A DNA stretch of 64,000 bases, taken from the NCBI GenBank assembly GCA_964036295.1, contig OZ038467.1:14471670-14535669 (forward strand). The letters run 5' to 3'. Shown here in pieces: positions 2,085-61,199 of the stretch. Every line of letters starts with the position of its first letter. The stretch's first letter is position 1. The stretch is from Plumapathes pennacea. Lineage: Eukaryota > Cnidaria > Anthozoa > Antipatharia > Myriopathidae. The translations under genes were made by a program, and so were the position numbers. Below the pieces are notes generated by a model, which was not told where the DNA came from, did no database searches, and was given only the letters and a program-made list of their open reading frames with translations.

Positions 2085-5000
2085 CTGTGACGATATAAAT
2101 CATTATTTATTTTATTATTATTAATATTGTCATTTACATTGCCATAAAAAGGTGATTTGGGTTTACAGCAATTTAAAGTAATAATTTGCTGATACAACGG
2201 ACATAATATTGTAAGTATTTTCTTGCCTGGGTGTGTTGACTGCTGTGTGTGTTCATTGTATGGTCTTTGGCCTGCTTTGAAGGCTTTGATTGGTTAAGCG
2301 ATCTTTAAGTTGACAGGCTCTGTTTGTGTTACCCAATAGAGATCAACTGCGTGCGTATTTTTTATGAGCCAATTAAAAGTTGGCACTTTTTATCCTTTGT
2401 CACCCAGCTCGCTGAATAAAAAAAGTTTCACCCAGGACATTTGTTTGTCATATAAGTCATTATAATATACGATATCTATCGCTTCGAAAATTATGCAGAC
2501 TAAAAGGGTTGTATTTTTACTGCAGCCGTACAGTGACAATTTCAGCTTGTTCTGCCCGTTCTTTCATTCCTAATAAGTGGAATAATATTGTAAATGAAAG
2601 AGTGAGGTGGACCAGCAGTGCTGAAATCTGTGGTGGTACATTTCCATCCCAACCCATCAAACTAACGTCAAGACTAAACTTGTTATCTATCACATCTGGA
2701 TAGCTTCAACAGAGAAGATAGCCATTTACAAATCAACATATAAATTCAATTTGAAACTGCTAAATCACAGTCCCCACTAGTGCATGTCTCTATATTGACA
2801 CCATGTCATGCATCAAGATATGACAATTACACCTTGTGTTCAAATGTTGGCTTCGTGAGATCTGTTAATCAAGTACTCTAATTAATGCTTTGTGAAAGGT
2901 ATAGATACAAAATGCAAATGCAAATGTGCACTAATTCATGTACAGCACTGTGTTATAACATTGCATAAATTTGCTTGTTTTTTTTTTCCCCTAGTCTTCT
3001 TCGATCTCACAAATTAAGAATGACATTCTTGTCATGTTATGTGAGTATAAAAATTGTACAACAGATTGCAAAAACGTACTATACTGACAGTTGTTGAACA
3101 AGTTAATATAATTATCAGAAGCTGGTGTCTGGCAATGATTCATATCCCTGCACATTTAGATGAAGAATCGATCTCCAACTAAAACCCACATATGGGTCTG
3201 GGTAATATTATATTCTGTGGAATGGTAGGGTTAATTGGAGGTGGGTAAAAATATATATATTACTCGTGCTTCTGGTAGTTTAGCTATGTCGTATCTTATT
3301 ACAACTTCCTCACATGTTCTTTCAGGCAAAAACCGGGGACGACTTATAGTTGACTGAAGTTTATGATCTAGATCTTTCTGGGTGGCCGGAATTAAAAGAA
3401 GATACGATGACACACGTCACGCTTTCATTTTACCTCCCAGCTCAGAAAGATCGAGAACGACTTCATTTCTTTAGTAATTTATTCTTTAACACTTTTTATA
3501 ACTGAGACATTTTTCTGTATATCAAATCCAACTGCCCGGCAAAGGCGGAACAAATGAAATAATCCTTGTCCAATAAGTTGGTTTTCTATTGCTAAAGTTG
3601 GAAAAATCAGAGTTGTAGGAGCATATAATATTATTAACACGCACAACTGTTTGAATGAATTTAAATATTTCCAGTCCCAGAATATATTCAAAATCCATTA
3701 ACGATTCCAAACCTTGCGCAGTACACAGAGAAAACTGTACGATTAATTTGCAAAGGCAAAACGACAAAACGACGTCGTTGAAAGGAAACTCAAGGGTATT
3801 AAAAATTCCACTACTCATGCTGTCCAATGCACGCGAAGGCATAATTATAAAACTGAATTTCAGTTTCAGAAATTGGATAGATCACACAACAAATTACAAA
3901 CGGCACGGCAGCGTAGCTTGTTCAGACTGACATCAATACAAGCCAACAAGAAGCGTGTTCAAAGTTGCGGCATTTGAAGAATGAGTGCCAGACAAAACGT
4001 GAAAGACGCCATGCTTTTCCTCATTCGGTGAGTGCGCCCCCGTACAATGAAATGAATATAACATTTGAAAGATTCTCAAAGCAGAAAGAGGGCTTGATAA
4101 TTTCGTGAGTCGCGTACAAAGCAGGCATGTGAATTGTTTAAATATGCAACACGTCACAAATTTCGTGATTCACGTAACAAACTCACTGAATTTACCTCCG
4201 TTTGGTCGTTCACTTTTCCTCGTCGTTTGTAACCATCCATAACACAACGAATAGAGAACCTAGTAATGAAGAATAAAAGAACTTATCGTTAGACAAACTC
4301 GAGTTTACAGAGGCCCAAAAACGAGTCTATGAAATCGGGGTATTGAAGCTTACTGAGACGCGATATATTCCGTCCAAGAACCAATCCCCGATAGAGTGTT
4401 GTATCAGGTTAGATACGAGAACACGGCTCGGAGATACCCTGAGCGAGAAAAGCTACGAATCACGTAATGAGCGGCAGAGTTTACCATCGCCCTCAAAACG
4501 GAACCATGTCGCTGCTTCGGCCAGGTGACTATTTGTTTTCAATGACATCGACGTGTTCGCTGTCACGTGGTAAAAACGTGGGTAACCCCCAAGGGAACAG
4601 GAAGAAAGTCATGCATCCATTCACGTGAACCAAATACTACACGGAACTTTTCACAGCGCAAAGTTGAAGCATGCCTGCCCGTTCCTAAACCTTTTGTGCC
4701 TTAATATTTATGTAAACAGAGAACATGCTGAAACGCGCTCAGTAGTCTCTGTGATCAAAGTATGAAATCCCCTTCGCTTTTGCGCGAAAGCCGTCCGATC
4801 CGTTTCTTCGTTATCTCTTTTGTAGACAGAGGAATAGAAACCGAATGACTAAGTTCATATTTTATGCTTGAACGATGGCGTACAGATCCGTGAAAGACCA
4901 CGCTTTTGAAACTGATAAAAGCACATTTTTGATGAACCTATGGATTCTCACTTCGTGTGGGGTAAATTAGAGCTTGTGCGTGAGCTATGTTTGTTTCCGT

Positions 5001-11967: not shown

Positions 11968-14900
11968 CTATCTCTTGTGGAATTTCTTGGAGGGATCCTT
12001 GGCATGGTCTAGCAGTAGTTGACAGGGTTCAAACTGGGCGTCACCCACAGCACTCTGCAAGCTCCTCATTCTGTCCACAAATTTATCTGCACCGTAAGAG
12101 TCGAGGAAACGGAATGGGCCTGAAAGCAGATTGTAACTAGTTAGTCACTTTTGGGAAAATGAAATGTCTTGCTCATGTCATTACACTGTATTTCAGTGTG
12201 TATGATGAATTTAAACTAAACTAAAGTTCCTCACTTCTGAAGCAGACTTACAGTAGTTCACTTGTCAACCCCCCCCCCCCCCCCCACCCCCACCCCCCAC
12301 CGCAGGGCCAAACCATTTGATTGAGTGGGCCCCAGACCCCCGACAAAATATCCCGCCTGAATTTTTTTATGGCTTGGCATCTCTGTATACAGCATTCTTT
12401 ACCTCCATGGAAAGGTGGGAATCCAAGACCAAACACAGCCCCAATGTCACCATCCACCTGATAAACCATCACACAGCAGTTAGTTGCAAGAAGTTGCCTC
12501 ATACACAGAAAAGACATACATGTAATGGCAGAGTATGTGACACACAAAGATACAACACTCATTGCCAATTTCACATCCCTTAGTTATTGCTGGTCCCTAA
12601 ATCATGAAAAAAAAAAAAAAAAAAAAAATTCCACTGTAGTCCTGGTACCCTTAGACATTTCTCTGAACCAGTGCATGATAAAAGGGAAACATTTGCCAGT
12701 AGGTTAAACCAAAACTAAACTTTAGGGAGAGGGCAGTTATAAATGATGAGAGCAACAAAGCAAGAACAAATGAGTGCAATAATTTGGTGACCAATGAAAA
12801 GATTCAGGACTACTTACTGGACTGTTCAGGATGCCTTCCTGAAGACAAAGGATCGACTCGTTGACAAACCTACACGCTAGTCTCATCTGGATCTCTTCTG
12901 GTGCATGGCTTGAAAATAAAACATGATATAGAAATGAAAGAAGACAATGATCAGGCCAGAAATCCTCTCTCCATCCACCGTTTTTCAGGAATCCTGTACC
13001 GGTATTGTATGGGCAATCATCCCACCCTCGACCTTGGCACTAAACACAGACTGATTGGAGGAGGGCTTATAACCAGGAAGGATTTTCAGTTAACCCTTTC
13101 ACTTCCAATAGTGATCCACTTCAATTTTCTCCTTCACTTTCTCACCAGAAACATGATACAGTAGTAAGAACTTGGCTTTTGATACCTTGCTAGGATGAAA
13201 GCTGATTAAACTATCAATTCTCACTACATTACTCATACATTTTACTCTTAAAAGGTTGGGAGAATCTGCATTTTGAGGGTTAACAAAAGGGTGGTCCTAT
13301 GACTGGGTGGACTTATCACTGGGTTGGCATATACCTGGGGAGTTTTACAGTAATATGATTACCTTCCCTTCTTGGGCACATTGAACTTCTTCAAAATTTC
13401 TTCAGTCTCATTATTGATCTATGAAGAAGATTGCAAGAAATGTGGTCATTATGAGAAATTCTTTAGCAGAGTGCTGTGCCAATGCATCAACTTTGTTTTT
13501 GACAAGCAGTTTCTATAACCTACCTCTCGCTTTCCTTTGCCTTTGCTGTAAACAAAGAATCCTCTGCCAGATTTCCTACCTAGACAAACAGATATTATAC
13601 CAAGAAAACTTGATTACTGTAGCAGATAGCTGTGAAAACAGGGACAGATTTTCTGCCTGTTGCTTGTGAGGCTGAAAAATACCTTCTGAGAAACCAAGCT
13701 GACAAACGACTTCCATGACATCATAGGCTGTGTCAAGAGTGGCCAATCAGAAATCACGAAAGAATGGTCTTTCCTTTGTCTTCTTGATTTTGAAAAGCTA
13801 AATTCTGTTTGGACAAAGCCTGACATAGGAAGTTGTTTGTTGGCTCGGTTTTGCAGACTGTATTTTTCGGCCTTGCAAAGCAACAAGCAGAAAATCCATC
13901 TGTTTTCACAAGCAACATGGCAGAGTACTAAAAAATACTGAGGTACTGTTTACCAACCTAAGTTGCCACTTTCAACCATGCTCTTAAGCACACCAATATC
14001 TGCACCACCAAATCTGAAATGAAGAATGAAGCCATGTAAACTCAAGACCAAGGGAATTACTACTCTGGAGCAAATAAAATATAAATATAAATAAATACAG
14101 ATTCATAGGAGGTTGTGTGATCTGTGTATATTTTACCTTGCTCCAAAAGCTTTCTCCAAGTCTTCAGCCACATGACAAGCGACATCAATTCCAACCTGTA
14201 GAGCACCAAACACAGACATCAACATCAACATATTTGAAGAACGTCCAAGCGAGTGGAACCACACGCTAGGTTTTTTTATTGTTAGTAAGCCTAGGTTTAG
14301 TTCTATTGGTTAGAATACAAAAGCATAACAACGAAGAGAATAAGGCATCTGATTGGTCTAAAGCAAGCTTTTATTATTAAAATGCTGGCCACCTCTAGTT
14401 CTTATATCATAATTTATTGTCTAAGCAGAATATTGGCAAGAGTTCTTGGGAGACAAGGTGTTTATGTGAGACTCCTGCAATAACCATTGCCCTCTTACAG
14501 AATCTATTAAAGACTTGGAACCCTTGAATTAATCCCCAATGCCATCAGATAGGTGTTAGAATAGATAAGGTAAAGAATGATGACACAACAAGTACAATAC
14601 CTCATCTGCGAGAGTGGCAGATCCCACAGGGAAACCAAACTGCTTGGTCAGCTTGTCCAGATCCTTTGGACTTATACCCTCCTGCAAATGAAATAAGGAT
14701 AATAATAATAATGAAATCCAATTAAGCTAGGATGAATGGTATTCTTTCTCTGAACCCTTCTGCAAATAAACTGCAAGATTTTGTTTGAAGATAGATTAAA
14801 AAGCTTGTTCCAGCTTAAAACGCATCAAGGATGTTGCTGAGGATGAAACCTTCACATTTTCAAGCTTATCAAATAAATGATAAGAAAGTTTAGCCCTAAT

Positions 14901-17900
14901 CCAGAATTAGCCTAATCGCGCTTTGAAAAACCAGGCCCTGGTTGGTATGTGGTCATTAACATGGTAAGTAGTCCATTGGTGGTTGGTATGTCAGCTTGTA
15001 GTTGCTAACATAGTGTGTGGTCGGTATGTGGTTGGTATGTCAACTTGTAGTTGCTAACATAGTGTGTGGTCAGTATGTGGTTGGTATGTCAGCTTGTAGT
15101 TGCTAACATAGTGTGTGGTCGGTATGTGGTTGGTATGTCAACTTGTAGTTGCTAACATAGTGTGTGGTCAGTATGTGGTTGGTATGTCAGCTTGTAGTTG
15201 CTAACATAGTGTGTGGTCGGTATGTGGTTGGTATGTCAGCTTGTAGTTGCTAACATAGTGTGTGGTCAGTATGTGGTTGGTATGTCAGCTTGTAGTTGCT
15301 AACATAGTGTGTGGTCAGTATGTGGTTGGTATGTCAGCTTGTAGTTGCTAACATAGTGTGTGGTCATGATGTGGTTGGTATGTCAGCTTGTAGATGCTAA
15401 CATAGTGTGTGGTCAGTATGTGGTTGGTATGTCAGCTTGTAGTTGCTAACATAGTGTGTGGTCAGTATGTGGTTGGTATGTCAGCTTGTAGTTGCTAACA
15501 TAGTGTGTGGTCAGTATGTGGTTGGTATGTCAGCTTGTAGTTGCTAACATAGTGTGTGGTCAGTATGTGGTTGGTGACATGGTCATTATGTAGTCAGTTT
15601 GAAAACACTGCATCTTTGTACCTGTAGCAGTGCCACAGCCTCTGATAATGTTGGTGCTAGGATCCTTGTAGTGTAAAACCCAGGCCCATCCTGTTCAGTG
15701 AAACGTGACATCAATAAATGAGGAGACAACCTTCAGCTGCTGTGTCGGAAACTGACTTGTAATAGATTTAGTCACGCCAACATATTTTTGTAAAGTGAGA
15801 GTGTGATCAGTGAGTAGAGTGGATTAGTAAGAATGATAAGAGCACATTGCCAACGAGCGGAAAGATTAGTGGGCAAAACGAGATACAGCTTTAAGTGGGG
15901 TTAATTTTTGGCAAGTGATACAGGTGAATAGAGCATTGCATTCATGAGTAATTCTTTGATAGAGGGCAAAGCTTGATTAAATCTGTGAAAAGACAACCTT
16001 GCAATTTGAATACTTGGGAAGGCGAATTCACGATAGCTGCACATGAGGAATGAGAAAGTAGTTACCCTACCATACCTTGACAACAATGACAGTCTTTCCT
16101 TGTTTCAAACCAACATCGACAGCAGCAGCTAAAGGAAGAGTACAGCAAACAGTTAAACCGATAATATTATTAAAAATACGATAATTGCAGATATCCCCTC
16201 GCTCTGTAGTGGGTTTTTAGGAAGCAGGATTCTTGTCTATTTTCTGCTTGGATATTATTAATATTGTTTTTACAAACCATGGTTGTGTGGCATTGTCACC
16301 AGCTGGCCGCTAAAAAAATGTTTGTTGCATGGCAGTCTTGTTTTGTTCAGACAATGTGCACAATGATGCGTTTTCAAGATTTTGTGGACAAGCTAAGCCC
16401 TAAAATTCACTGAAACAACTTTCTACAGACAACCACAGAATACATCCAAGACTGTCTTGCAAGCCAAGAAATGCGCAATTAGAATCGTGACTAACAGATT
16501 TCGAGATGGCGACCTGCTTGGAGTCTCCAAAAAGTATAACCATCAGTGTCGTGATTATTACCCTCGCAGAGCTTGGGGATTATGAACCCTTGTCTGCCCG
16601 AGGGCAAGAGATGGTTGGTCCTGTACAATAATGTACAAAGGATGACCCATACTGACCAGCTGTGTCGTTGGAGGTTTGGTCCGTTGTGATAATCTCTAAC
16701 AATGGCATCTTATCAACTGGAGAGAAGTAGTGCATACCAACAACCTGTGGGAAGACCAGCCAAAAGTACATGACTGTATTGTTGCATGAACAATGCAAAC
16801 CGGTAACAACCACCAGAAGACTTAAAATGATGTTCTAAAAGTTACCATACTTGACAAGATATTCAATTCAAAATGAAAACTCAACAGGGCTTGAGAAATT
16901 TTCCCCACTGGCCATGGGCTAGCCCAGATTCGGGGATTCACAGTGTGGACTGCTAACTTGTCTGGAAAAGAGAAAGTCCGTCGGGCACAGAAAGAATCTT
17001 TCTTGCCAGCCCAATGTCAAATATTGCTAGCCCCAGCCCAGTGTCAAGCTAGTGGACTTTTTGAGCTTTGCTAAAACACCGTTCTGCATCTATCACCTTT
17101 TCTGGTCTTTTGCTTGCTTTGGCAATCTGTAGGTAGGAGAACAAACAAAAGTATATTGAGAGATGTATACATAAGCACATGATTGTATTGTCCTGTGACC
17201 ATGACTGATTATCCTTGCTGTACATGAAAAATCTAAGGTATGTAAGTTACCTAACCCTTCAACATATAAATCCTGCAAACCATTCACAAAGAAAATGTAT
17301 TAAAGGGTAAGGTAGTGAGAATTATTGATGTTCAATCAGCTTTTTATCTGAGAAAGCTATCAAAACCCAACTTCTCCATACTGTATGACAACCTTCAGGT
17401 GAGAAAATGAAGACGAAAATGGTAGCTGATTATTCATGACAGTGTACAGGGTAAACTGAGATCCTGCACATACCTGGGTGATGGGAAGTGCTGATGTGTT
17501 TGTGGCAAACACACAATGTTCTGGAATGACCTAAAGTAAGCATGAACAAAGCAATAAGTCAAATGGCACAGTAGCTCTTGCACCCTATATTTCACACCCT
17601 ATACTTCAGCACAAATCAGTACAAACCTCCTCGACTTCTTTGATGACTTTATGCTTGATGTTGATATCTTCAAACACAGCTTCAATCACCATGTCAGCTT
17701 TGTCAAAGCCCTACAACACAATTGAATATTAAAACAATGGACAATAATATTATTATTTATTCTATCCATAAAGATTAGTTAGTTATAGAAGTGACCACCC
17801 TCTGGAGAATTTAGACTAAGGCTTGGTAGAAACATCGCTTTACAGTGCTCGACATTAAGGTTTTTGGGTTGGTTGCCCTTCGGACTGAAGATTGACTTCA

Positions 17901-26820: not shown

Positions 26821-28440
26821 TATCCGAATAAAATCGTAGTCTCAGTCTTCAGCAAGGGAACCCCTTCTGTCCATCTGTCATGGATTTGAAAGGCATCCAC
26901 AATTGTACTTTTCACTCTGATTGGAATTTTTAAAAGAAAAAAAAAATCATTTTTATAATATAAAGTAATACATCTTTATTGATAACATTGGCACATGGGA
27001 TTTTGAAGCGTGCATTATTGTCATTGACTTTTGACAAATTTGATGGCTCCTAAAGGAGCCGTTCGTGAATGTTGAGGCACGCAGTTCTGTAACCCGGGAC
27101 TGCTGGACCTAAAAGTTCCATCCAGCTCCCATCACTGCCATCTCTGAACAAATTCTGGTCAAGCAGGCAACTCAAGTCTTCCATATTTTCCAGGGACCAT
27201 GGATTTATCTCGTGACCACAGCAGTTGCACACAACAATAGTTGCTGAATTCGAATTGGCCTGACAATAAAAAAAAAAAAAAAAAAAAAAAAAAGAATAAA
27301 AAATAGTTACTTCACGTCACCTAATCTTCCACCATATGAAGGTTTTCATGACAACTTCTGGAAACCAATAAAAATTTATGTTCAACAAAACTGACATACT
27401 AATCATTAGGAAATCATCAAAATTTTGTACTATATACACTGAGTTTACTTATAATATGGTATCACTATCAATCAGTGTGTTTGGTTAAATTTCTTGCCAA
27501 ACTACAATAGGCATATAAGAGATTGGAAGTTCAATATACCATATAATGAATGCATTTAAAAAACAAGTGATCAATCAGTCACTTCAACATACACAATAAT
27601 TATTGTGTATCACTTTAGGTAGATTTTCTACCTTTCTGATTTTCTACCTTTTCTGATTTTCTACCTTTCTGATCCACTGGTAAAGCACAAAGTGTCAAAG
27701 TGCTCTTTTGTTGACACTTTGGGCACAGCTCTGACAAATGCTTCAAGAAGAGATGTCTTCCTGAAAAACAAAACAAACTATTTTTACCTAGCAATCTACA
27801 GTGAATAAAACAATATTACTAATCATCTGGGCCCGGTTTTTCGAAAGCCGATTAAGCTAATCCAGGATTAACGAAATTCTTTCTCTCAACACCGCTGCCA
27901 ATACACTGCAGAGTTTTGTTCGAAGATGGATTAAAAAGCTTGTTACAGCTTAAAAACGCATAAAGGAAGTTGTTGTGGACAAAACCTTGACGCATTTTCA
28001 GGTATCTAAATGACATGAAACTTTAGACCTAATCCAGGATTAGCCTAATCGTGCTTTGAAAAACCAGGCCCAGAACTATTATAATAATTATATGATTGAC
28101 AGTAAAAGTAATGAAATTGAGCAAGCCTAGTTAGAACATAAAAAGCATCTTTGATTGATTTTGAAATACACTGATGACTAACATGAATGGAGAATGGGGA
28201 GTTACATCCATGGCCAGCAATTCATAGGACTATGTGTAACTTTGGGATGTACATATGTTAAGAATAACTTACACATCCTATTCATTAAAACAAAAACAGT
28301 GTTAAATATTCACTGGAAAACTACTGTAGCACTAAGGGCAACTAGATATTGACTGCGTTGGAGTGAAGAAAGACAAATATTGTACAATAAATTAACTAAG
28401 GGTCACTGTGAAACATAGACATGTTAGCGCTCGAAACATC
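26821..28440 (-). pseudogene. KDZ-like repeat family, copy A (3' part only)
   Basis: It is colinear with 58731-60262 over its whole length, interrupted by a MITE here and a different MITE there. Read on the minus strand it holds the last coding segments of that family: one encoding a Cys-rich stretch near 27760-27670, and an open one at about 27260-27050 that begins around CNCCGHEINPWSLENMEDL and ends IHERLL. The 5' exons, present in the other two copies, are missing: homology stops at about 28440. Assignment to KDZ (Kyakuja-Dileera-Zisupton) elements rests on the cysteine cluster in copy C and is tentative. No transposase domain is visible. Confidence 0.5.
27829..28071. mobile_element. GGGCCC-ended MITE nested in copy A
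   Basis: A 243-bp element from GGGCCCGGTTTTTCGAAAG to CTTTGAAAAACCAGGCCC. The paralogous position in copy C (about 59697) is uninterrupted (AATCATCAGAACTATT), which shows the insertion directly and its near-exact ends. Same family as 14.7 and 21.25 kb. Confidence 0.8.
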
Positions 28441-34437: not shown

Positions 34438-34535
34438 TTGGTGGCAGCGGTGGCGAGCCTCCCGAACCTAAGGCAAGCATTTATTTCTGTTAATATAAAG
34501 TTTTGAAGGCTCGTGTGTTTTGTGCACCGATCGCT

Positions 34536-35681
34536 ATGACGAGCGAACGCGATTCTGGCTTGTATCCAAGCTGTTCGACCCCGTTACCGCCGAGCAGATT
34601 GCCAAACCCGTTCAAAACCATTTCATTTACGGGAGAGAATTCTCCAGCTTCCAAATCGAGAAACCCGTTCCGTAACGAACAGGACCACGTCGGAGAACAG
34701 AACAGCTCGTCAAGTGTTTTCAACCTACCCGATGTAAACAATGTGTCCGTATCGCCGCGGCGCTCGACTCGTCCCTTCTCCAAGCCAGTAAAACTACCTG
34801 GAGACTACGACGGCAAAACATGTCTCAGAGACTACCTCCGTCACTTTGATAGATGTGCTGTAGTGAACGGATGGGATGCCGAAGAATCAGCTGTGTTCTT
34901 GTCAGCTGCCCTTCGAGGCGAAGCACAGAAAATTCTACATGGCTTGACAGACACAGATTGCAGCAACTACACGAAACTAGTCAACCGGCTAGAGCTTCGG
35001 TTTGGAGTAGATAAACAGGTGGAGCTTCACCAGGCTAAATTATTGAATCGGAAACAGCGGAACGGCGAGTCGTTGAAGGCCCTCGCAGCAGATATACGAG
35101 AAATGTCCAGCTTGGCATACCAGGATTTAGCCCCCCACGCCCAAGAAAGGTTCGCTGTACAGCATTTTATTGACGCAATATCAGACAGGGATGACCGCAT
35201 GCGCCTACGCAGGGACAAACCACGTACCTTAGATGAGGCTCTCATGGCTGCATGTGAGCTTGAGGCCTTTCGGCTTGTAGACACTGGCCTGAAGACAGCT
35301 GCGCCAAGGATTAGATCTGTGGAAAGTGTTGAGAGCGAGACCAGCTACTTGGCGAAGAAACTGGAAGAATTGCAGCTACAACTTAAGACACAGCAGGAAC
35401 AGTCCATAGCCCAACAGGAGATTCTGCCTCAGCTCGCAGACGAGGTGCAGCACTACTCCCAGCGCGATAGCAGGCCTCGTACACCCCTAGGCCGAGGTTA
35501 CAAAAGAGGAAACTACCAGGATTCTCCTCAACAGAAAAACCTTGCAAACACAGCTTGTTGGCACTGCGGGAATCAGGGTCACTACCGCCGGGATTGCCCA
35601 TCTCTGACAGAGGATCGTTCTCAAAGCCGGATGCCGGGAAACGGATGGAGGGTGTTTCCTGCAACCCAAGGGAACGCCTGA
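34536..35681 (+). CDS. Ty3/Gypsy gag
   Basis: Capsid/nucleocapsid protein of an LTR retrotransposon, 381 residues from ATG 34536. It starts 99 bp after the LTR. The middle part has the retrotransposon capsid pattern (LPGDYDGKTCLRDYLRHFDR, later AFRLVDTGL), and a CCHC zinc knuckle (C-x2-C-x4-H-x4-C) lies at 35555-35596. The frame is open to its TGA, so this part looks undamaged. The pol part begins in another frame overlapping its end, consistent with a -1 shift. Confidence 0.85.
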   Translation: MTSERDSGLYPSCSTPLPPSRLPNPFKTISFTGENSPASKSRNPFRNEQDHVGEQNSSSSVFNLPDVNNVSVSPRRSTRPFSKPVKLPGDYDGKTCLRDYLRHFDRCAVVNGWDAEESAVFLSAALRGEAQKILHGLTDTDCSNYTKLVNRLELRFGVDKQVELHQAKLLNRKQRNGESLKALAADIREMSSLAYQDLAPHAQERFAVQHFIDAISDRDDRMRLRRDKPRTLDEALMAACELEAFRLVDTGLKTAAPRIRSVESVESETSYLAKKLEELQLQLKTQQEQSIAQQEILPQLADEVQHYSQRDSRPRTPLGRGYKRGNYQDSPQQKNLANTACWHCGNQGHYRRDCPSLTEDRSQSRMPGNGWRVFPATQGNA

Positions 35682-36148
35682 ATGCTTCAACCCTGGGGGA
35701 TTCTACAAATTCTGGCCTGAGCAATAATGACGAACAGCAGGACAAAGGCAGCCGGCCGGGCTTAGCACCCGCTCACCGTGGCCTTTACTTAGCCGGGTTC
35801 ATTGGACAGCAACGTGTCGAATGGCTCATAGATACAGGGGCAGTGCGCTCTATACTGTCTTGCAAGGCGTACCAGAAACTACCAGAAAGTCAGCAATTTT
35901 GTTTGAGAGATGAGAACAGCGAGATTTACCTCGCAGACGGTCACAAGGCTTGCACTTGCGGCACAGGGGAGACACTACTAAGATTAGGCAATCAGGGCCT
36001 GGCCATAAGCGTCGTTGTTGCAGACATAAGGGACGACGCCATTCTGGGCATGGATGTTTTGTCTCAGACAAAACATCAATACTGGAAATGCTGCACCCGT
36101 AAAACAGCGACCCCGCAGAACCGCACCTTGGAAACAGTCAGAGATTGA
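35682..36148 (+). pseudogene. Ty3/Gypsy protease segment
   Basis: Aspartic protease region in a frame different from gag. The active-site triad D-T-G is at 35831-35839 in WLIDTGAVRSILS, and the second conserved strand ILGMDVL lies about 70 codons later. The frame opens before the gag stop (from about 35555) and ends at 36148. Immediately after ILGMDVL the sequence jumps to the region just before reverse transcriptase, so the usual several-dozen-residue connector is missing and the frame changes. Confidence 0.7.
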
Positions 36149-37250
36149 AAGACAAGTTGGCTCACTACTGGACGAAGGAAGGGTACAGGAATCCTCTAGC
36201 CCATGGGCTTCACCGGTGGTCCTTGTGACCAAAAAGGATGGAAGTCAGAGGTTGTGTGTGGACTATCGGCGGTTGAATTCTGTTACAGTCAAGGATGCTT
36301 TTCCACTGCCACGTATCGATGACTCCCTCGATTGTTTGTCAGGATCCAAATGGTTTTCCACCCTGGACATGGCCTCTGGGTATTGGCAGGTTGGCATGGA
36401 TCCACGTACAAAACAAAAGGCTGCATTTGTCACTACCAGTGGATTGTATGAGTGGAATGTGATGCCATTTGGCCTGAGCAACGCACCTGGAACATTCGAA
36501 AGGCTCATCACCTTGGTGCTAAAGGGACTGCAGTTCAAAATCTGTTTGTGCTACTTAGACGATGTGATTGTGTTTGCCCACACCTTCCAACAACATCTGG
36601 AAAGACTAGAGGAAGTCATTTCTAGAGTTGCATCAGCAGGACTTAAACTTAAGCCAAGGAAATGTGCCCTTTTCCAACAGAAGACCACCTACCTGGGCCA
36701 TATTGTGACCCCACAAGGAGTCCAAACTGACCCTGCTAAGGTCGAAAGAGTCTCTAGCTGGCCTACTCCGGAAAGTTCATCGGAACTGAAGAGCTTCCTT
36801 GGTCTAGCAGCTTATTACAGGCATTTCGTCCCAGGATTTGCAACGGTGGCCAGACCGCTCTATCAGCTCACTGAACACACCAAAGAATTCCAGTGGACCA
36901 TCGATTGCCAGCAGGCCTTTGATGAACTGAAGAGGCTATTGACGTCATCTAAGGTACTGGCCTACCCACAACCAGACGCTGACTTTACTCTGGACACAGA
37001 TGCCAGTAACCACGGAATTGGTGCGGTGCTGTCGCAGAAACAGGGCGGCATGGAAAAGCCAATAGCGTACTCAAGCCGGACACTCTCAAAATCGGAGAGA
37101 AATTATTGCACCACACGTAGGGAACTTTTGGCAATTGTCGAGTTTACTAAGCAACACCGACACTACCTCCAAGGTCGCAAGTTCGTTGTACGCACCGATC
37201 ATGCCCCACTGCAGTCAGTCCTCAAGACCAAAGACCCGAGGGACAATTAG
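36054..37250 (+). pseudogene. Ty3/Gypsy reverse transcriptase and RNase H
   Basis: Contains in order LCVDYRRLNSVTVKDAFPLP, the FSTLDMASGYWQ motif, YLDD at 36552-36563 and the RNase H start TLDTDASNHGIGAVLS near 36985. The catalytic residues I can see are present. The frame ends at 37250 just after RNase H; a shift of one base near 37240 moves the rest (the ARW...HTNADAMS region) into the integrase frame. Since protease and integrase are in one frame and this part in another, two length changes flank it. Confidence 0.85.
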
Positions 37251-38437
37251 CCCGCTGGATCACACACCTAAGTACCCTGGACTTTGACATCACATACCGT
37301 CCAGGGATTAACCACACGAATGCAGATGCTATGTCTTGCTGGCCGTGCACAGATCGTTGCAAATGGTGCCAAGCATGGAAAAGGGCTGAACACCCAACCA
37401 GTCGGGAAGTCGGAGTCCAAACAGAATGCCGCAGCAAGTCGGAGTCTCAGTGTGAGGAAGGCCAGGAATCAGGGAAACCGACCATTAGTACGGTGAAATT
37501 GGAACCAATGTGGACAGCACAGTCCTTGCAGAAGGAACAAATTGCAGACCCCCTCTTGAAAGCCTTCATCACCCTGAAGAACTCCAGCACCCACCGTCCA
37601 GAGTGGGAGGAGGTAGCCGACAAGAGTCCCAAGCTTAACGCATTGTGGGCCCAGTGGGACAGACTATCTTTTCAGAATGGCGTGTTATGCCGCAGGTGGG
37701 AGAACGAGAGAGGTGACCGACTCACCCAGCAGATCGTACTACCATCGAGCTTGCAAGAGACGGCCTTGCAAGCTCACCACAATCACACCACAGCAAGTCA
37801 TCGAGGGGTCCACAAGACCCTAAACGCCTTGAGACTCCGATACTACTGGCCGGGAATGACCTCACACACGCATCGATGGGTAACCAAATGTCACGACTGC
37901 GGTGCAAAGAAGTCCACCGGACGGAAGAGGCGGGCTACCTTGAAGCAATACATCTTGGGAGCCCCGCTAGAGCGTATTGCCATGGACATCCTGGGCCCGC
38001 TACCATTAACACCCAGAGGCAACCGGTACGTCCTAGTAGTAACTGACTATTTCACGAAGTGGACAGAGGGCTATGCTATTCCGGATCAAAGCACGCCAAC
38101 GGTCGCCGAAAAGATTGTTGCAGAATTTGTCAGTCGCTTTGGTGTTCCGCGACAGCTCCATAGCGATCAGGGGACTAATTTTGAATCTAAAGTCATGGCG
38201 GAGATGTGCAAATTACTCAACATCGAAAAGACGAGGACTATGCCTCTACATCCCCAGTCAGATGGACAAGTGGAGAGGTACAATCACACGCTAGTCGAAA
38301 TGCTGCGAGGCAAGTTGCAGGACGACCAGGGAGACTGGGACCTACAGTTGCCCATGCGCATGATGGCATACCGATCTGCTGTCCATGAATCAACGGGATC
38401 AACGCCAAACCAATTAATGCTAGGAAGAGAGTATTTG
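37251..38437 (+). pseudogene. Ty3/Gypsy integrase, 3'-truncated
   Basis: Starts with the RNase H tail, then the HHCC zinc region (HRGVHKTL ... CHDCGAKK) and the catalytic core with D at 37986, D at 38165 and E at 38273 (motifs MDILGPL, SDQGTNF, GQVERYN). The homology ends at about 38437 in the sequence LMLGRE, where it meets the LINE fragment on the other strand. The integrase C-terminus and the 3' LTR are missing. Confidence 0.85.
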
Positions 38438-39216
38438 TTGATGAGTTCTTTACATTTTCCAATGGTAGTGCACCTCTCAATAGTAGAAGAGTGTTGAGTA
38501 GGACGGAACAGTATGGTGCCATCGTTAGTCCAGACTTTCATCACGATGCCTGAATTGATTTCTTGACTCAGATATTTCAAGATGTTCCTTCTTGCGATGG
38601 TGAGATCCTCCTGTACGTTATATGCTCTCTTGTTTTCTTTGAGTAGACGTCGTTTACGTAGGATTTCAACCTTGGTATTGTGACGAACCAGGCGTACAAT
38701 AATCGGTCGAGGCTTCGTCGGGGATCTTTTTCCAACACGGTGAGATCGGCTAATGTCGCTGGCGGATAGTTGTACTCCAAGTTCACTACCAAAAAAATTT
38801 ATTGCAAGATCGTCGGTGTTTTCCTTTGCGTCATCAGCTGCTTCGGGTATTCCAAAGATTCGTACGTTTGTACGTCTAGTATATTGTTCGAGATCATCGA
38901 TTTGTTCAAGGAGTCGAGAGTTCGTACGTTGAAGGTTGGTGATCTTAGTTTCCGTGGCCATGTGAGAATCTTTTTGTTCAGCAGCATCAAACAGGATGCT
39001 CTCTGGAAGGGAGCTCGTAAACTCGGAAGAAGAGACGTAGTCATCTACCGCTTTGGAGGCTTGAGCTTTGAGAAGATCCTTCACAATGGCAGGAAGTGTG
39101 CTTGCAATCCAATCATTGAGTTTGATCTCTAATTTCGCCCAAACATCATCCAGGAATGAGTCACCAGATTTCTCAGGAGATGCAACGGCTTTAGTGGCTC
39201 CTTTAGGTTTGCCCAT
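38437..39216 (-). pseudogene. LINE ORF1 (coiled-coil RNA-binding protein), 3' end lost
   Basis: Starts MGKPKGATKAV at 39216. It has a coiled-coil stretch (TKITNLQRTNSRLLEQIDDL), then the hallmark YTRRTNVRIFGIPE, an RRM-like part with SRSHRVGK and RPIIVRL, and a C-terminal region up to CKELINKYS. This is the layout of ORF1 nucleic-acid chaperones of L1/Tx1-like non-LTR retrotransposons. The frame stays open 310 codons, but its last part is read from the antisense of Gypsy DNA. ORF2 is absent. About 160 bp of leader runs up to 39376. Confidence 0.75.
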
Positions 39217-39381
39217 AGTTGAATTTTGAAGAGTCTCGCTAGTTTAAGCTACATTTACGTCCAAAGTAGGGTTAGCGCAAAAAAGCAGCGTCCATCTTGT
39301 CTGACCGCTGACCGCTATGTCTGTCTTTCTATCTCAGTGGCAATCACCGGAGTTTGAGCTTGACTGCTGTTGGAGACCTTA

Positions 39382-39597
39382 GAGCGGTTTTCGAATGACT
39401 GTCGAAAACCAAAACCAAAGTAAAACCAAAGCAATCACAAAGCCAATCAGAGACGCGAGCAAAAACACGTCCGACCAATCAGAAGTGCGAGTAAAATCAA
39501 ACGCAATACATCGGGTTTGGTTTTGGTTTTACTAACCAATCAGAGAGGCGAGCAAACGCAATCGTGTGTTTACTTGTGTTTACTAGCCAATGAAATC
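39382..39597. mobile_element. Left end of GAGC-ended MITE family
   Basis: Starts GAGCGGTTTTCGAATGACTG right after TA (39380-39381) and abuts the LINE leader. CCAATCAGAG-type motifs and CAAAACCAAAG runs follow. Only the left portion of the family seems present; similarity fades near 39597. Confidence 0.5.
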
Positions 39598-40221
39598 TCG
39601 AGCTGTTCGAGGGTATGGCGTAAGCCGCTCAGAGAAGGTCCGAAGGAATGCCGAGTGGAAGAGGGTCGCTGATTTCGTCTCGAAAATGGAAATGCTTGTA
39701 ATTCTTCTGCAATTCACGATGATGCCAATTGGAATAAAGTGGATTGAAGCAGAGGTTGCTGTGGTGTTTGTCTTACAAGTCATTATTTCGTTCACGGAGT
39801 CGCTGCGATCGCCGTACCTGTCGACTGAAGTTGTGGAAGTAATTGACTTCACAGTCGAGAAATCATAGACTTTGTTTCGTCTTTTAACATCTCACGCCTC
39901 TTGGAAGTGTAAGTACATACTTTTTCGTTTAGCTTGGTCGAAAATCGCATGATTTCTCTACCGCATGAATCGCTAGGATGAATGTTTGCTTTATCCAGTG
40001 TGTTGATCGATGTGAACTTTATTCGCAACTGATCGGGAACTGACTGAGCCAGCGTTGAAAATAGGCTATTACATTCTTGATCTTCGAAGGAAAGGTGTGT
40101 TCTCTGATTTGTTTGTGTTGATGGAACAGCGCAGCGCGCGGATGGTGTAGGATATTTTAGCGCGCGAAAATTGGTATATCTGTACGCGGTCGCGTCGGAC
40201 AGCCTAACGCCACGCAAAAAC

Positions 40222-41901
40222 ATGTCCGGCATTGCACATTATTGCAACTTTTGCCGGAACCACGGTGTTCCGACCCGTGTTTCCGCCCTCCATAGGGCAA
40301 ATTGCCCTTGGAGGGCATGTGCATGCGAACTTTGCGAGCGGGTAAGGCGCAGAAACGAGTACCGGCGGAATTTACACAGGAGTACAATATCTAACAGTAC
40401 ATCAGTTCCTTCATCTTCCGCCGGTGCAACAGCCGCTGATGTTCTCGCTGCTGCGAACTCAGCGGCCGGCCCCGCCTGCGCTACTTCAGCAGCCGCTGCA
40501 AGAGCCGGTAAGTTAACTTTCTTTTCAACTTTTCAACTTGTGCAGTGCACCGTTGCTTGCTTATATTAATACTGTTATGTATTTTTATAGCCAAAACTAA
40601 GCGTCTGAAGGACGAACAGAAGACATCCGCGTTAAATGCATTTGTAAATAACTTCATGGCCAACCTGACGGCGGAGGAACGGCAGCTGCCTGTCTTGACG
40701 AACCATGCAAGGGCACTTAAAGTCTTTAAAGAGCAAAGTGTAAGTGATGTTTATTTTTCTGGCATATACTGTATCATCGGTCAAACTCTGTTTACTCTAA
40801 TGTTGGTCTTTGAGTTTGGCTCATGGCTACACATAAAGTAGCACTAGTATTATTACAGGGATGTCAACTGTAACAAACGCTGTATGAGCACTGTAACACG
40901 AAGGCTGGTATCCTCCTGACGAAAAAAATAACCAAAGAATCAGAGTTGTAACCCTTTCAATGTTTTCTATGAGCATTTCTTTTTCAACCACGTTTAGCCA
41001 AAAGGAAAAGCCTCCTAAAATCAAAATTGTATGCCGGATATTTTCTTTGCTGTTCCGATGTTACTTTTAGTTTCTTAGCAATTTTTGTTTTCTGATTCAG
41101 ACAAAATTTTCGTATTCTCTGCAAAATTTTGCTGTGCTCCTGGGTTGGTGCCAGAGAGTTGACACCCCCATAGTAATTTGAATATATTTATTGTCCAATT
41201 TACAGTCGTCAAGCAGTGCCAAGCGACAGCCATCAGGGCTTATGGCTCTGATGCGCCTTGAGGAGGCCTTTCCCCATATTCCTTATACAACTTTACAACA
41301 GTTGTATAGGGACTGTGGGGAAAGTGTCAACAATATGTTGGATGTGTTGACTGGGGCACATCCAACAGCCTCCTCTGTCCCTGCCGTTCCTCCTCCTGAT
41401 GTCACTACTGCCCCTTGTGTTGTCCCGTCCGTTCCTTGTGCTGTTCCTGTTGTTCCTTGTGTTGTTCCAACTGACCCTCCTGCGCCTGCTGCTGTTTCTG
41501 CTGACTCCTCTCCTGCCCCATGCATCGTGACAGTGGAGGATGCCAGAAATGCTGAGAGATTAAATGTATTATTTCCCCAGTTTCTTTCTATTATTTCAGA
41601 TGTGTTCACTTCGTTTGATTTTAATTTTGTGCAAACAGTTGATTTCTTGATTTCTTTGTCTGGATCTGGATCTGGATCTGAACCCCATAACAATGTTTTA
41701 AGTTTTTCTTCTGGGGTGGAACAGCTGCCCTCTGTGGGGGGTGAGCCAGATCCATTTTCTGTGGTATTGGCCACTCCCACACGGCATGAGGGGGGAAGAA
41801 GGCCCTTCAGGTGTCCACACTGTGGGTACACCACAGCTGCTGGGGATTTTTGGTTCTGCCCCAGTTGTGGACACCCTTTGGAGGGCAGACCTCGCCTTTA
41901 G
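40222..41901 (+). CDS. DM-domain protein with CUE-like segments and C-terminal zinc ribbon, 376 aa
   Basis: Probably a nuclear DNA-binding protein related to DMRT regulators. Three exons join in phase: 40222-40507, 40591-40739 and 41206-41901, with donors GTAAGT and acceptors TTTTTATAG and ATTTACAG. Residues 8-38 hold the full set of DM-domain zinc ligands (C-x2-C-x2-H ... H-x3-C-x4-C-x1-C-x2-C), with one residue more than DMRT1 between the two histidines, followed by a basic tail. Residues 158-196 resemble a CUE/DMA domain (MRLEEAFPHIP ... MLDVL). After a Pro/Val/Cys-rich linker (199-251), a second FP-containing helix set lies at 261-297. C348, C351, C363 and C366 form a zinc ribbon. In DMRTA proteins a CUE-like DMA domain also follows the DM domain; the terminal ribbon is not something I know there. 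It may be a host gene or transposon cargo. Confidence 0.75.
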
Positions 41902-41910
41902 GTACATTTA

Positions 41911-42131
41911 GGGTGCGTTCGATTGGCCGTATTCTGGAATAAGAATAGCTAAAATGATCCAAAGTTTTGCTTTTTCTGTGGGAAATTTTTTTTCGGGATT
42001 GTTTTAAAACCTTCATGCTGACATTTCGAACAGCTTCCGATACATCTCAACATAATTCAGCTCCAAAGCAAAATATTTTTTCAACCAGTATCGCTATTCC
42101 TATTCCGGAATAGACCCAATCGAACGTGCCC
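41911..42131. mobile_element. PIF/Harbinger-type MITE, TTA duplication
   Basis: 221 bp starting GGGTGCGTTCGATTGG and ending CCAATCGAACGTGCCC, with TTA on both sides (41908-41910 and 42132-42134). Subterminal TATTCTGGAATA / TATTCCGGAATA motifs also pair. It lies nine bases after the stop of the DM gene, hence probably in its 3'UTR. Confidence 0.8.
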
Positions 42132-42134
42132 TTA

Positions 42135-42372
42135 GTGACACTTTCGGATTGGTCCATACAAGTTTGGCAGCATTCTCAGCCAATCAGGAACAAAACCAAA
42201 ACCAAACACTTCTAACGCAAGCAATGGCGTGTACTTGCATTGCTGATTGGAAAGTAAAACCAAACGCAAGACCAAATGCACATTACTCTGGCTTCCGATT
42301 GGCTGAACTGTCTTCTCTCAGTCTCTGTGATTGACCTTTGTGATTTCCGACAGTCATCTGAAAACGGATGAT
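42135..42372. mobile_element. Right part of GAGC-ended MITE family
   Basis: Aligns with the element at 1185-1527 from about its 65th base to the end: GATTGGTCCATACAAG, CCAATCAGG, then GACAGTCATCTGAAAACGG. The orientation is opposite to the end at 39382, so the two ends face outward from the DM gene. Confidence 0.5.
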
Positions 42373-42467
42373 ACCCTCGTATATGCTTGCTGACAAGTGC
42401 GTCATTTGATGTTTACTAAAAACAAGCTCACCTGTCGAATGCCTTTGGTATTGGCAAATAATTATTG

Positions 42468-47599: not shown

Positions 47600-48869
47600 T
47601 CAGTCCAATTTTAGTAATTAATGATGTCTCCAAATAGCTATTCGACTGACATGCGTGTGGAGCTCATGGATGCATTGAACATCTCCATCTCAGGAGTGAC
47701 TGCTGCTCCTCGAAATGGTGCTTGAAGGTGGACCCTTAATGGGTATGCTGGGTCTCCATATATACACATGGGTTGACCCAGTGTTGAAAAGGCATGTCGC
47801 TCGAGATCTTGTAAGAGACTGGAATCTGCCAGCATACCAGCATCATGCCTTCTGCCCTTTGAAACTTTAATACCACAGGATTATACCAAGCAAAGCTGTA
47901 AATACCTGGGGTGTAAGTGATGTTAGGTAAGTGATGATGAATAGCCAGTGTTGCGATGGTAGGAAAGGCATTATGGTATTTTGTCCAAACATTTTGACTA
48001 CACAGATATAAAATACACATCACCCCTGAATCATTGTCGTCTGATGTACTGGATAGAGACTTTATAGTGACAAAGTTGAGATTTCAAACATGCTGCCTTT
48101 GTACCAAGTATATTGTTTTCCCAGACATTTCTAGGTGGTATATTTTAATCACTATAATTTCACTGAAAACTAACCGTGTTGTAGACAAATAGCTGGTAAA
48201 CTTACCAACTGGGCCATACAGGTTTGCAATTATGCCATTTGGGAGGGCCACGGATTGGAATTTCAAGGCGTGCACTCTTTTGTGGTCGTTGTACACGATT
48301 CTTTGCTGTTCGCCTGGTCGGGAAATGGGTCGGACAGTCCCATCCACGAACCCGAAACAGTTGTCGAGCGAAGCTCCTTTCCCGTGGATTACGTCGGCAT
48401 ACACTTCCAAAGACCGGGGGTTTAACAAGGCGTCATTCCAGCGAGTTAGAAGGTGTCCATGAGTGTCATAAATGTAATCAAGGACATGATTCGTGATCAT
48501 GCTTATCACAGGCACTGGTCGGCCAAATCGTGGCACCATATCACCGTATCTGCACGGATAAGCAAGTCTCTTTAAAAGCATGCACAACCCCTCCATACCA
48601 TCAGCAACACTTCTTTGGTGCGTCTTGAATGTTGCTGGAATCGACAAGGCTTCGCCGAGAGCAGGAAGGTCTCGTTTTTCAACCCTGAATTCTGCTTTAC
48701 ACTCGGCTTCATCCATTTCATCGAGGTCAAATCGAGAGTAATCATCGAACGGGAAGTCTGGATTTTTGGACTGAAATGTTTCATATAGAACCAAAAACTC
48801 TTCATCGGAAACAACTCCATCGTGGTAGTAGAGACACAGAATCTCACGGAATTCCTTAAAAGTACTCAT
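47600..48869 (-). pseudogene. PIF/Harbinger transposase (DDE nuclease), inactivated
   Basis: HARBI1-like cut-and-paste transposase. The first coding exon, 48869-48206, has the helical N-terminus and the first catalytic Asp in NCFGFVDGTVRPISRPG, ending NLYGPV at a GTAAGT donor. The next part (47858 downward) has the RRHDAGMLADSSLL motif and the second Asp in CIYGDPAYPL; the catalytic Glu follows in MSVE. Two lesions are visible: the acceptor expected at 47859-47860 reads AA instead of AG on the minus strand, and the Trp after the catalytic Glu is a TAG stop (about 47637). Another stop follows shortly after. The copy cannot make active transposase. Confidence 0.8.
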
Positions 48870-58730: not shown

Positions 58731-61199
58731 GATATCCGAGTAAAATCGTAGAAAATTGGACATCTCAGTCTTTAGCAAGGGAACCCCTTCCGTCCATCTA
58801 TCATGGATTTGAAAGGCATCCACAATTCTACTTTTCACTCAATCATTCTTATAATATAAAGTAATACATCTTTATTGATAACATTGGCACATGGAATTTT
58901 TAAGTGTACATTATTGTCATTGACTTTTGACAAATTTGATGGCTCTTAAAGGAGCCGTTCGTGGATGCTGAGGGAGTTCTGTAACCCAGTACTACTGGAC
59001 CTAAAAGTTCCATCCAGCTCCTGTCACTGCCATCTCAAATTCTGGTCAAACAGGCAACTCAAGTCTTCCATATTTTCCAGGGAACATGGATTTATCTCGT
59101 GACCACAGCAGTTGCACACAACACACAATATAGTTGCTGAATTCGAATCGGCCTGACAATAAAAAAAAAAAAAGAATAAAAAATAGTTACTTCATGTCAC
59201 ATAATCTTCCACTATATGTAGCTTTTCATGACAACTTCTGGAAACCAATAAAAATATATGTTCAACAAAACTGATATACTAATCATTAGGAAATCATGAA
59301 ACATCAAGATTATCCTGTATTGTATACACTGAGTTTACTTATAATATGGTATCACTATCACTCTGTGTGTTTGGTTGAATTTCTTGCCAAACTACAATAG
59401 GCATATAAGAGATTGGAAGTTCAGTATACCATATAATGAATACATTTGAAAAACAAGTGATCAATCAGTCATTTCAACATACACAATAATTATTGTGTAT
59501 CACTTTAAGTAGATTTACTACCTTTCTGATTAACAACAATAATGGATCCAGGTAAAGCACAAAGTGTCAAAGTGCTCTTTTGCTGACACTGTGGGCACAG
59601 CTCTGAAAAATGCTTCAAGAAGAGATCTTCCTGAAAAACAAAACAAACTATTTTTACCTAGCAATCTACAATGTCTAAAAACAAAATTACTAATCATCAG
59701 AACTATTATTATAGGATTGACAGTAAAAGAAATGAAATTGAGCAAGCTTAGTTAGAACATAAAAAGCATCTTTGATTGATTTTGAAATACAGTGATGACT
59801 AAGGCCGTGTTCACACTTGGTGCCCGAGCACTAGTGCCTGAGCACCGGCAAAAATGAAAAGAAAAAAAAAACGCGTTCACACTGCAAACCGGGTCCCACT
59901 TTAGTGCCCGAGTACAAGGTCGAGACCTTGTACTTGGGCACCGGCACCGTGCCCGAGTTCTGGCGTGGGCACTTGAAAAAAAGGTGTGTTCACACTAGTG
60001 CCCAGCGAGAATCGTGCTCGGGCACCGTGCTTGGGCACCAAGTGTGAACACAGCCTAACATGAATGGAGAATGGGGAGTTACATCCACGGCCAGCAATTC
60101 ATAGTACCATGTGTAACTTTGGGATCTACATGTTAAGCATAATTCATGTAGCACTAAGGGCAACCAGATATTGACTGCGTTGGAGTGAAGAAAGACATAC
60201 ATTGTACAATAAATTGACTAAGGGTCACTGTGTTAAACATAGGCATGTTCGAAACATCAGCTTCTAATCCTTTTACCCTTAGTCAATTCATTATATACTA
60301 AATATTAAGTAACCTCTACTCTGTTCCATCTTTCCATCCTCATTCATTATGACATTCGGAGGTGTGTGCCTAAAGGAGCCATCAATCAAAGCTTCCCTGT
60401 CATAGAAAAGAAGCTCTTTGTGCATAGCTAAATCACATTTACGGCACATCCACCTCCCACTGCACTCATCACATCGCAACAGCCATGGAACCTTGTTGTG
60501 ACAAATGTCACGTTCTTTGGATATGCCAGGACTCTGTGAAAGGATGATGGCTTTAATGAACATCAATGATCTTGAAGCCTCCCAATTTTCATTTAAAGAT
60601 TCCATTCTCCTTTACCACCTGCTTTCATCCATAAACCCAAAAGAATCAAGAACAGCCTGCCGTTTGCCAGGGTTCAATAAGATGTAAACAAAATACAAAG
60701 TTAAAATAGTACGTTATACACACCTTCAATACTGCTGCAATTAGCTGCTGATTGTGCCTTTCCAGAACGTGGACGATACTTGTGCTCGCTTATCCGATGA
60801 CCTGTTACAGAATCTCGATAAAACTCGAACTCATTCTCTTCTTTTTTTCTTTTCCGCGGCTCGATATATCCACCTTCCGCTCGGGCTTTCCGTCGTGGCC
60901 GACTAGATGTTGTTTCACTGGGGCGATAGGGTCCTTTGAAGATTTTTCTGCCCATTTGCGGATCATACGAATGGTGAACTGTCGCAAGCTTTCTTTTTTT
61001 GGTCGATTTAATACTTTTTTGCCTGTACTATCAAGCTTTCTTGGCTTTCGGGAGATCGTGTTGTAGACGCCATTTTCTTTTCTGGAGGGTAGTTACCAGG
61101 TTACGCGCGGAATGGGTTTAATTTTCTCTATATCAGTGAATGCCATTGTCAGATAGTATTTCATTGTATTCGTTAAAGTTTGCCTCGAGAACATGTTGC
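58731..61199 (-). pseudogene. KDZ-like repeat family, copy C (5' to 3')
   Basis: The most complete copy, read on the minus strand. The leader at 61199-61130 matches copy B. The first coding exon, 60955-60724 (starts MGRKIFKGPYRPSE), contains SVTGHRISEHKYRPR, the counterpart of the copy B phrase. The segment 60605-60310 has a cysteine cluster (WLLRCDECSGRWMCRKCDLA ... MHKELLFYDREAL ... FRHTPPN), much like the CxC clusters known beside KDZ transposases. Later pieces at 59635-59525 and 59160-58950 match copy A. The piece before the cluster runs into a stop (about 60622), and a short deletion near 59040 brings another, so the copy looks broken. No transposase core is visible. Confidence 0.5.
59803..60055. 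mobile_element. PIF/Harbinger-type MITE, verified by an empty site
   Basis: 253 bp, GGCCGTGTTCACACTTGGTG to CACCAAGTGTGAACACAGCC, with TAA on both sides. Copy A at about 28178 has the uninterrupted site (GATGACTAACATGAATGG) with one TAA, which proves the 3-bp duplication. Confidence 0.92.

Follow-up and report, generated by a model that had tools for sequence, protein, structure and literature searches.

Positions 39382 to ~42407 of the window, by which we mean the whole 64,000-nucleotide stretch of Plumapathes pennacea DNA analysed here, are a right-truncated copy of a 6-kb DNA transposon. The reading that we favor, and in which we have fairly good confidence, is that this copy represents the left half of a cut-and-paste transposon of the IS630-Tc1-mariner kind that has long carried a DMRT-type second gene, with the DM protein acting as a regulator. 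The components of this reading differ in strength. Judged from its sequence, the identity of the whole as a DM-carrying Tc1/mariner-type element is nearly certain, and it is highly probable that the DM gene has been retained for a long time under selection. The predicted role of the DM protein as a regulator, probably through DNA binding, is put forward tentatively. The features of the window copy and the complete copies used for comparison are collected in Table 1.

Table 1. Positions of the element, its parts and a related MITE in the window, and of complete copies elsewhere in the genome.
Feature	Position	Strand	Remarks
Left half of 6-kb Tc1/mariner-type element	39382..42407	+	Transposase and right terminus missing; 97.9% identity to C2a positions 1-3036
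TA target dinucleotide, left end	39380..39381	not applicable	TA on both outer sides in 15/15 two-ended stretches
Left terminal inverted repeat, 26 bp	39382..39407	+	Identical to reverse complement of C2a right terminus
Exon 1: DM domain and Ala/Ser-rich linker	40222..40507	+	Joined frame, Pfam
Exon 2	40591..40739	+	Joined frame; homologous stretch in C11 relative
Exon 3: DMA/CUE-like region, Pro/Val-rich linker, C-terminal zinc ribbon, stop	41206..41901	+	
Nested inverted repeat, probably another MITE (Harbinger-like)	41911..42132 (borders approximate)		Also in C2a; 40-bp arms at 80-82.5% (C2a; C2a versus window)
Internal inverted degenerate copy of left subterminal region	42135..42372	-	Previously described as the right end
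343-bp MITE, same terminus family, TA on both sides	1185..1527		Matches the two element ends at 78% (88 bp) and 74% (121 bp)
Two-ended copy C2a	C2:18113535		6,071 bp
Two-ended copy	C10:10866434		6,052 bp
Two-ended copy	C2:22471947	-	5,972 bp
Two-ended copy	C8:6282352	-	6,079 bp

With respect to the ends of the element, the 2,991 bp from 39382 to 42372 were queried against the 290-Mb genome, a search for further copies that the preliminary description had proposed. At least 73 matches were returned, and at least six of these, the window copy included, covered the whole length at 94-100% identity. The whole-length matches share one left boundary, GAGCGG after TA (GATCGG in C2c), and position 39382 is thus a true transposon end, as had been claimed. 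The corresponding claim for a right end at 42372 did not hold. Specifically, the segment that reaches this position is an internal inverted copy of the subterminal region (in C2a, positions 2836-2994 align with 181-6 at 68% identity over 179 bp), and all 11 copies that were compared run on beyond it in a common sequence. One of them is the window copy, which continues for another 35 bp and then breaks off at ~42407. Because the copies run on past it, 42372 was rejected as the right end of the element.

Four copies carry both ends together with all three exons of the DM gene, and these measure 5,972-6,079 bp between inverted ends GAGCGGTTTTCGAATGACTGTCG with TA on both sides. The DM gene lies on one strand of each of them and a transposase gene on the opposite strand. 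The suggestion of a larger DM-carrying element that shares its ends with short MITEs is accordingly sound in substance but not in the extent given to it, as the real element spans ~6 kb and includes a transposase on the other strand. Tc1/mariner elements are usually single-gene and about 1-3 kb in length, and a two-gene element of this size falls outside that range; size is, however, not a defining property of the group. The outer 26-bp inverted repeat of C2a is 100% identical, and the left ends of C2b and C8 carry one changed base each. Both ends were present in 15 of the 20 stretches examined (deletion derivatives included), in every case with flanking TA. Moreover, when the flanks of one locus (L046) were joined with a single TA, they matched end to end at eight unoccupied places (84-88%, alignment matches only), and two filled sites matched the joined flanks as halves overlapping by TA. 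These matches at unoccupied and filled sites show that the TA is duplicated on insertion. The right part of C2c appears by eye to be a different Tc1-like element plus other sequence, and copy C6c, which is in two pieces, was kept outside the copy comparison.

The transposase comprises 335 aa and matches Pfam DDE_3 at 65.8 bits. It possesses D168, D251 and E286, the last two of which are separated by 34 residues (DD34E), and from the first hairpin (NQFGGVY) onward its N-terminus matches the Pax paired domain (Pax5, E=9e-4). The PAX profile itself reached 21 bits against a cut-off of 22 on this protein, with several genomic rows slightly above the cut-off. Taken together, the DDE_3/DD34E transposase and its Pax-like N-terminus place the element in the IS630-Tc1-mariner kind, albeit as a member that is larger than usual and has an extra gene. 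The reading frame is stop-free in 14 of 17 full-length genomic rows, and it is open over all 335 residues in each of the four two-ended copies with DM exons. A search of viral contigs for transposase relatives yielded five pattern matches, none of which was confirmed. Pax-domain matches also occur in the genome as a local expansion, with eight in 70 kb at C7:18973474-19042859.

When two mismatches are allowed, a 28-bp end with TA has 1,088 forward and 1,052 reverse matches across the genome, and the reversed control gave 0 and 0. Such a number of ends (~2,140) shows that the MITE population is large, with some end pairs only 95 bp apart. Given the ends that they have in common, the MITEs may well be mobilised by the transposase of the element. 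Other repeats are also present in the window. Open frames at 34494-38497 resemble, by eye, parts of gag and pol from an LTR retrotransposon of the Gypsy type, and a 261-aa open frame on the minus strand at 48084-48869 is by eye like a Harbinger-type transposase, with no Pfam match at E <= 0.001. A tandem repeat with 49-bp spacing and 12 registered copies occupies 14850-15682, and a direct duplication of ~1.5 kb (26840-28410 and 58763-60232) is found with its members 31.6-31.9 kb apart and its blocks 93-98% identical.

The second gene of the element had been described as a phase-consistent three-exon gene at 40222-41901, and the analysis bears this out. The exons are joined through GT..AG introns into a single stop-free frame of 376 aa, and the DM gene is real as a reading frame. 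Pfam recognises a DM domain in the window protein at 31.2 bits versus a cut-off of 27, and alignment with DMRT1 supports both the previously noted zinc ligands and the one residue more between the two histidines, which appears as an alignment gap. The C-terminal zinc ribbon was also correctly identified. It takes the form CxxC...CxxC, scores below the cut-offs of the Pfam ribbon models, and is the sole confident part of a single-sequence structure model of exon 3 (mean pLDDT 42.5). Between these domains, two CUE-like helix sets had been proposed, and support was obtained for the first. Its alignment score with the DMA domain of host locus L013 was reached by 0 of 2000 shuffles, and that with L015 by 23 of 2000. 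The second set, in contrast, received no alignment support from the L013 and L015 DMA domains (7-9% of shuffles). Pfam found no DMA or CUE domain in the window protein, and a fragment gave only a sub-cut-off match to Stanniocalcin; the profile search that had been advised thus recovers DM above its cut-off, the ribbon below it, and DMA/CUE not at all.

The order of DM, DMA/CUE-like region and zinc ribbon is common to the window protein and the host DMRT gene L013 on C9, in which a DM exon is accompanied by a last exon encoding a DMA domain and a C-terminal ribbon. A second host gene on C9 likewise has DM and DMA domains together with a ribbon that is related (44% over 40 aa), and DM, DMA and zinc ribbon are combined in NvDMRT F of Nematostella as well, as reported in PMC4433094. 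On the basis of this domain set and the shuffle-supported DMA alignment, we read the window gene as a probable DMRT-type gene of the DMA subclass that has strongly diverged. In a tree of DM domains, the window protein groups with a relative on C2 (L030; 98/96) on a long branch that is far from 13 other DM rows. The same tree left the DM domain of a further relative on C11 unplaced and gave no support to its common origin with the window DM domain (33/0). Exon 3 relatives were sought in viral contigs, where neither of two pattern matches was confirmed. As a separate observation, three strongly diverged DM domains (L029, L021 and L019) lie within ~7 kb at C5:6538371-6545465 and are unlike both the other host DMRTs and the element.

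The two diverged relatives provide a view of the history of the gene. L030 is decayed (two stops) and shows 52% identity over 81 aa; the genome search for the transposase gave no match near it. Across the DM part, it differs from the window gene at 23.5 of 29.5 synonymous and 26.5 of 105.5 nonsynonymous sites (rounded Fisher p=5e-8). This combination of near-saturated synonymous and limited nonsynonymous change indicates that the DM part has been kept by selection. Among the element copies themselves, exons 1 and 2 of C2a and C8 differ at 14.5 of 105 synonymous versus 7.5 of 327 nonsynonymous sites (p=6e-5), the window copy versus C8 gives p=0.001 for the same exons, and C8 versus C2c gives a ratio of 0.75 in exon 1. 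The young copies have diverged too little for their dN/dS to be interpreted by itself. Exon 3 exhibited no significant constraint between C2a and C8 (p=0.42). We conclude that the DM part was, as far as these substitution patterns tell, under constraint during the history of the element, a claim that is limited to the DM part and does not include exon 3.

The relative on C11 (L020) has a DM exon scoring 44.3 bits, with one in-frame TAA after the DM domain. Its second exon, open over 254 codons, gives a CUE match that stays below the cut-off and ends in a CxxC...CxxC ribbon, and the position and phase of intron 1 are the same as in the window gene. The L020 stretch following intron 1 aligns with window exon 2 at a score reached by 0 of 1000 shuffles, and the two ribbons at 1 of 1000, for stretches that were picked by eye; the whole region gives 6 of 1000. 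The CUE-like part of L020 aligned neither with its window counterpart (17% of shuffles) nor with host DMA domains (28% and 57%). On the opposite strand, within 2 kb of this DM gene, lies a decayed transposase with stops that is 56% identical to that of the element over 71 aa, and the rough chance of any non-copy DM match lying so close to a transposase relative is 2e-4. The gene pair on C11 is arranged head to head, whereas that of the element is convergent, and a terminus-like relic is present between the C11 genes (0 of 300 shuffles). In view of this order and the relic, the C11 locus may consist of two neighboring decayed copies or of a rearranged element.

In terms of its present state, the DM gene retains its whole frame in three of the six all-exon copies compared (window, C2a and C10) and is broken in the other three, by frameshifts in C2b and C2c and, in C8, by a change of the first acceptor from AG to AT and loss of a DM histidine. 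C10 has lost one ribbon cysteine, and C4 retains the DM gene as far as mid-exon 3 and little of the transposase. Four copies (two on C1 and two on C5) have in common a deletion that runs from exon 1 into exon 3 and leaves an open frame of 263 aa. Exons 1 and 2 of C8 and C2c differ by 4-6% from the window copy and exon 3 by only 1.6-3.2%, so that these two copies are mosaics, perhaps arising from conversion between subfamilies. In at least nine matches the alignment stops at element position 864-865, and in at least six it stops at 751, the latter class being known from match ends only. Six of the nine copies in the former class were read, and all have a single junction, 865 to 3132, that leaves the opening codons of the DM gene in place and removes the rest. 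Together, the loci that stop short of the DM gene or shortly after its start (9 + 6) outnumber the eight loci with a DM exon (seven profile rows and C8). DM-less forms have multiplied with their own or borrowed proteins, and the DM gene is thus not required in cis.

These observations bear on several other explanations. One is that a host DMRT gene specific to this lineage lies between two MITEs that inserted there by chance, and the window copy, taken alone and with its intact frame, does have such an appearance. The repeated copies, which begin at one left boundary and carry on past 42372 with the same sequence, speak against it, as do the two-ended copies bounded by TA. Indeed, six whole-length matches with a single left boundary and four two-ended copies exclude this suggestion of the preliminary description, and its probability is practically negligible. 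It is also conceivable that the 6-kb element is a composite in which a DM unit with its own two ends was joined to a transposase unit and the outer ends took over. The inverted degenerate end between the two genes would be accounted for in this manner, as would the different gene order on C11 and the terminus-like relic there. Nonetheless, the internal end is not the terminus of any of the 11 copies compared (window copy among them), and we regard a composite origin as rather unlikely.

With regard to the DM gene itself, a host DMRT gene might have been caught once in a Tc1/mariner-type element and since copied as a passenger without use. Gene capture by DNA transposons is a known phenomenon, and the multiplication of copies without the DM gene, its breakage in half of the all-exon copies and the lack of constraint in exon 3 all point in this direction. 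What argues against an idle passenger is the near-saturated synonymous versus limited nonsynonymous change relative to L030, the constraint on exons 1 and 2 between subfamilies, and the second lineage on C11 in which a like gene sits beside a related transposase; we consider such a passenger unlikely. Alternatively, the DM protein might interfere with host DMRTs as a dominant-negative or decoy, or exploit host DMRT-type germline expression, rather than act on element DNA. The preserved host DMRT architecture with DMA and ribbon would fit this role, and the DMRT core motif, ACAATGT, is not concentrated at the ends of the element (three occurrences in 6 kb, none at the ends). The DM domain is, however, on a long branch distant from the 13 other DM rows and has a residue inserted between its histidines, which makes targets or heterodimers in common with host DMRTs doubtful. 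Interference with the host therefore appears quite improbable.

Returning to the favored reading of a Tc1/mariner-type element with its own regulator, we envisage that a cnidarian-type DMRT gene was taken up by an ancestor of the element, or that the two descend from a common ancestor. The DD34E transposase would move the element through its inverted ends, and the DM protein would serve the element as a sequence-specific DNA-binding regulator able to act in trans. Its most likely task would be to control expression of the element where movement is needed, as in the germ line or stem cells, and its targets could be the DNA of the element or sites in the host. The multiplied DM-less copies suggest that the protein is supplied in trans or is dispensable. 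DMA domains resemble CUE domains, and those of worm and human proteins bind ubiquitin (PMC7538159); by analogy with host DMA domains, the CUE-like part might tie the stability of the DM protein to ubiquitin.

The DMRT family is used by animals in sex determination and nerve development, and Tc1/mariner elements are usually taken to need a transposase alone. With a DMRT-type gene kept under constraint, this element would possess a developmental-type regulator of its own. It renders testable the notion that transposons steer germ-line expression through borrowed sex-determination factors. Counts of DM domains in genomes may also include transposon genes, to which we assign 9 of the 22 DM matches here by our own reading. 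More broadly, the element bears on the old question of an exchange of DNA-binding domains between transposons and developmental transcription factors. A highly speculative extension is that a Tc1/mariner lineage with Pax-like transposases has for a long time included DM/DMA/ribbon proteins as standard components, and that some early-animal DMRT genes derived from, or were spread by, such elements instead of having supplied them. If true, one mobile element would hold relatives of two classes of animal developmental regulators, Pax and DMRT.

Examples of DNA transposons with accessory genes already exist, whereas the open-literature matches listed contain no report of a transposon that carries a DM/DMRT gene; most subscription papers and Repbase lay outside the scope of that search. 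A term search for DMRT or DM domain in a survey of transposon-derived transcription factors likewise found no occurrence. As compared with Tc1/mariner transposons, the element shares the TA duplication, the inverted ends, a DDE_3 domain in which 34 residues separate the last D from the E, and an N-terminal DNA-binding region that is paired-like. It is unlike them in its length of ~6 kb, in its second, multi-exon gene, and in its GAGCGG ends, those of Tc1 being CAGT-type. Close precedents for its organization are other DDE transposons with a second, non-transposase gene inside them, such as fungal DNA transposons reported to encode TET/JBP dioxygenases (PMC12730594) and KolobokP, which is reported to carry a homing endonuclease (PMC9587614). 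In these cases the accessory gene encodes an enzyme, whereas here it is of a developmental transcription-factor type. The window gene resembles DMA-type animal DMRT genes such as NvDMRT F in its order of DM, DMA/CUE-like region and zinc ribbon (PMC4433094), but differs from them in being mobile and multicopy, in its very diverged DM domain with the extra inter-histidine residue, and in a DMA region beyond the reach of Pfam. Finally, an origin from Tc1-like transposases has been proposed for the Pax paired domain, and paired-like transposases are already known from acorn worm and oyster (PMC4901127). The N-terminus of the present transposase matches this domain, including NQ(L/F)GGV(F/Y), and in this instance the match resides inside an element whose transposase is open.
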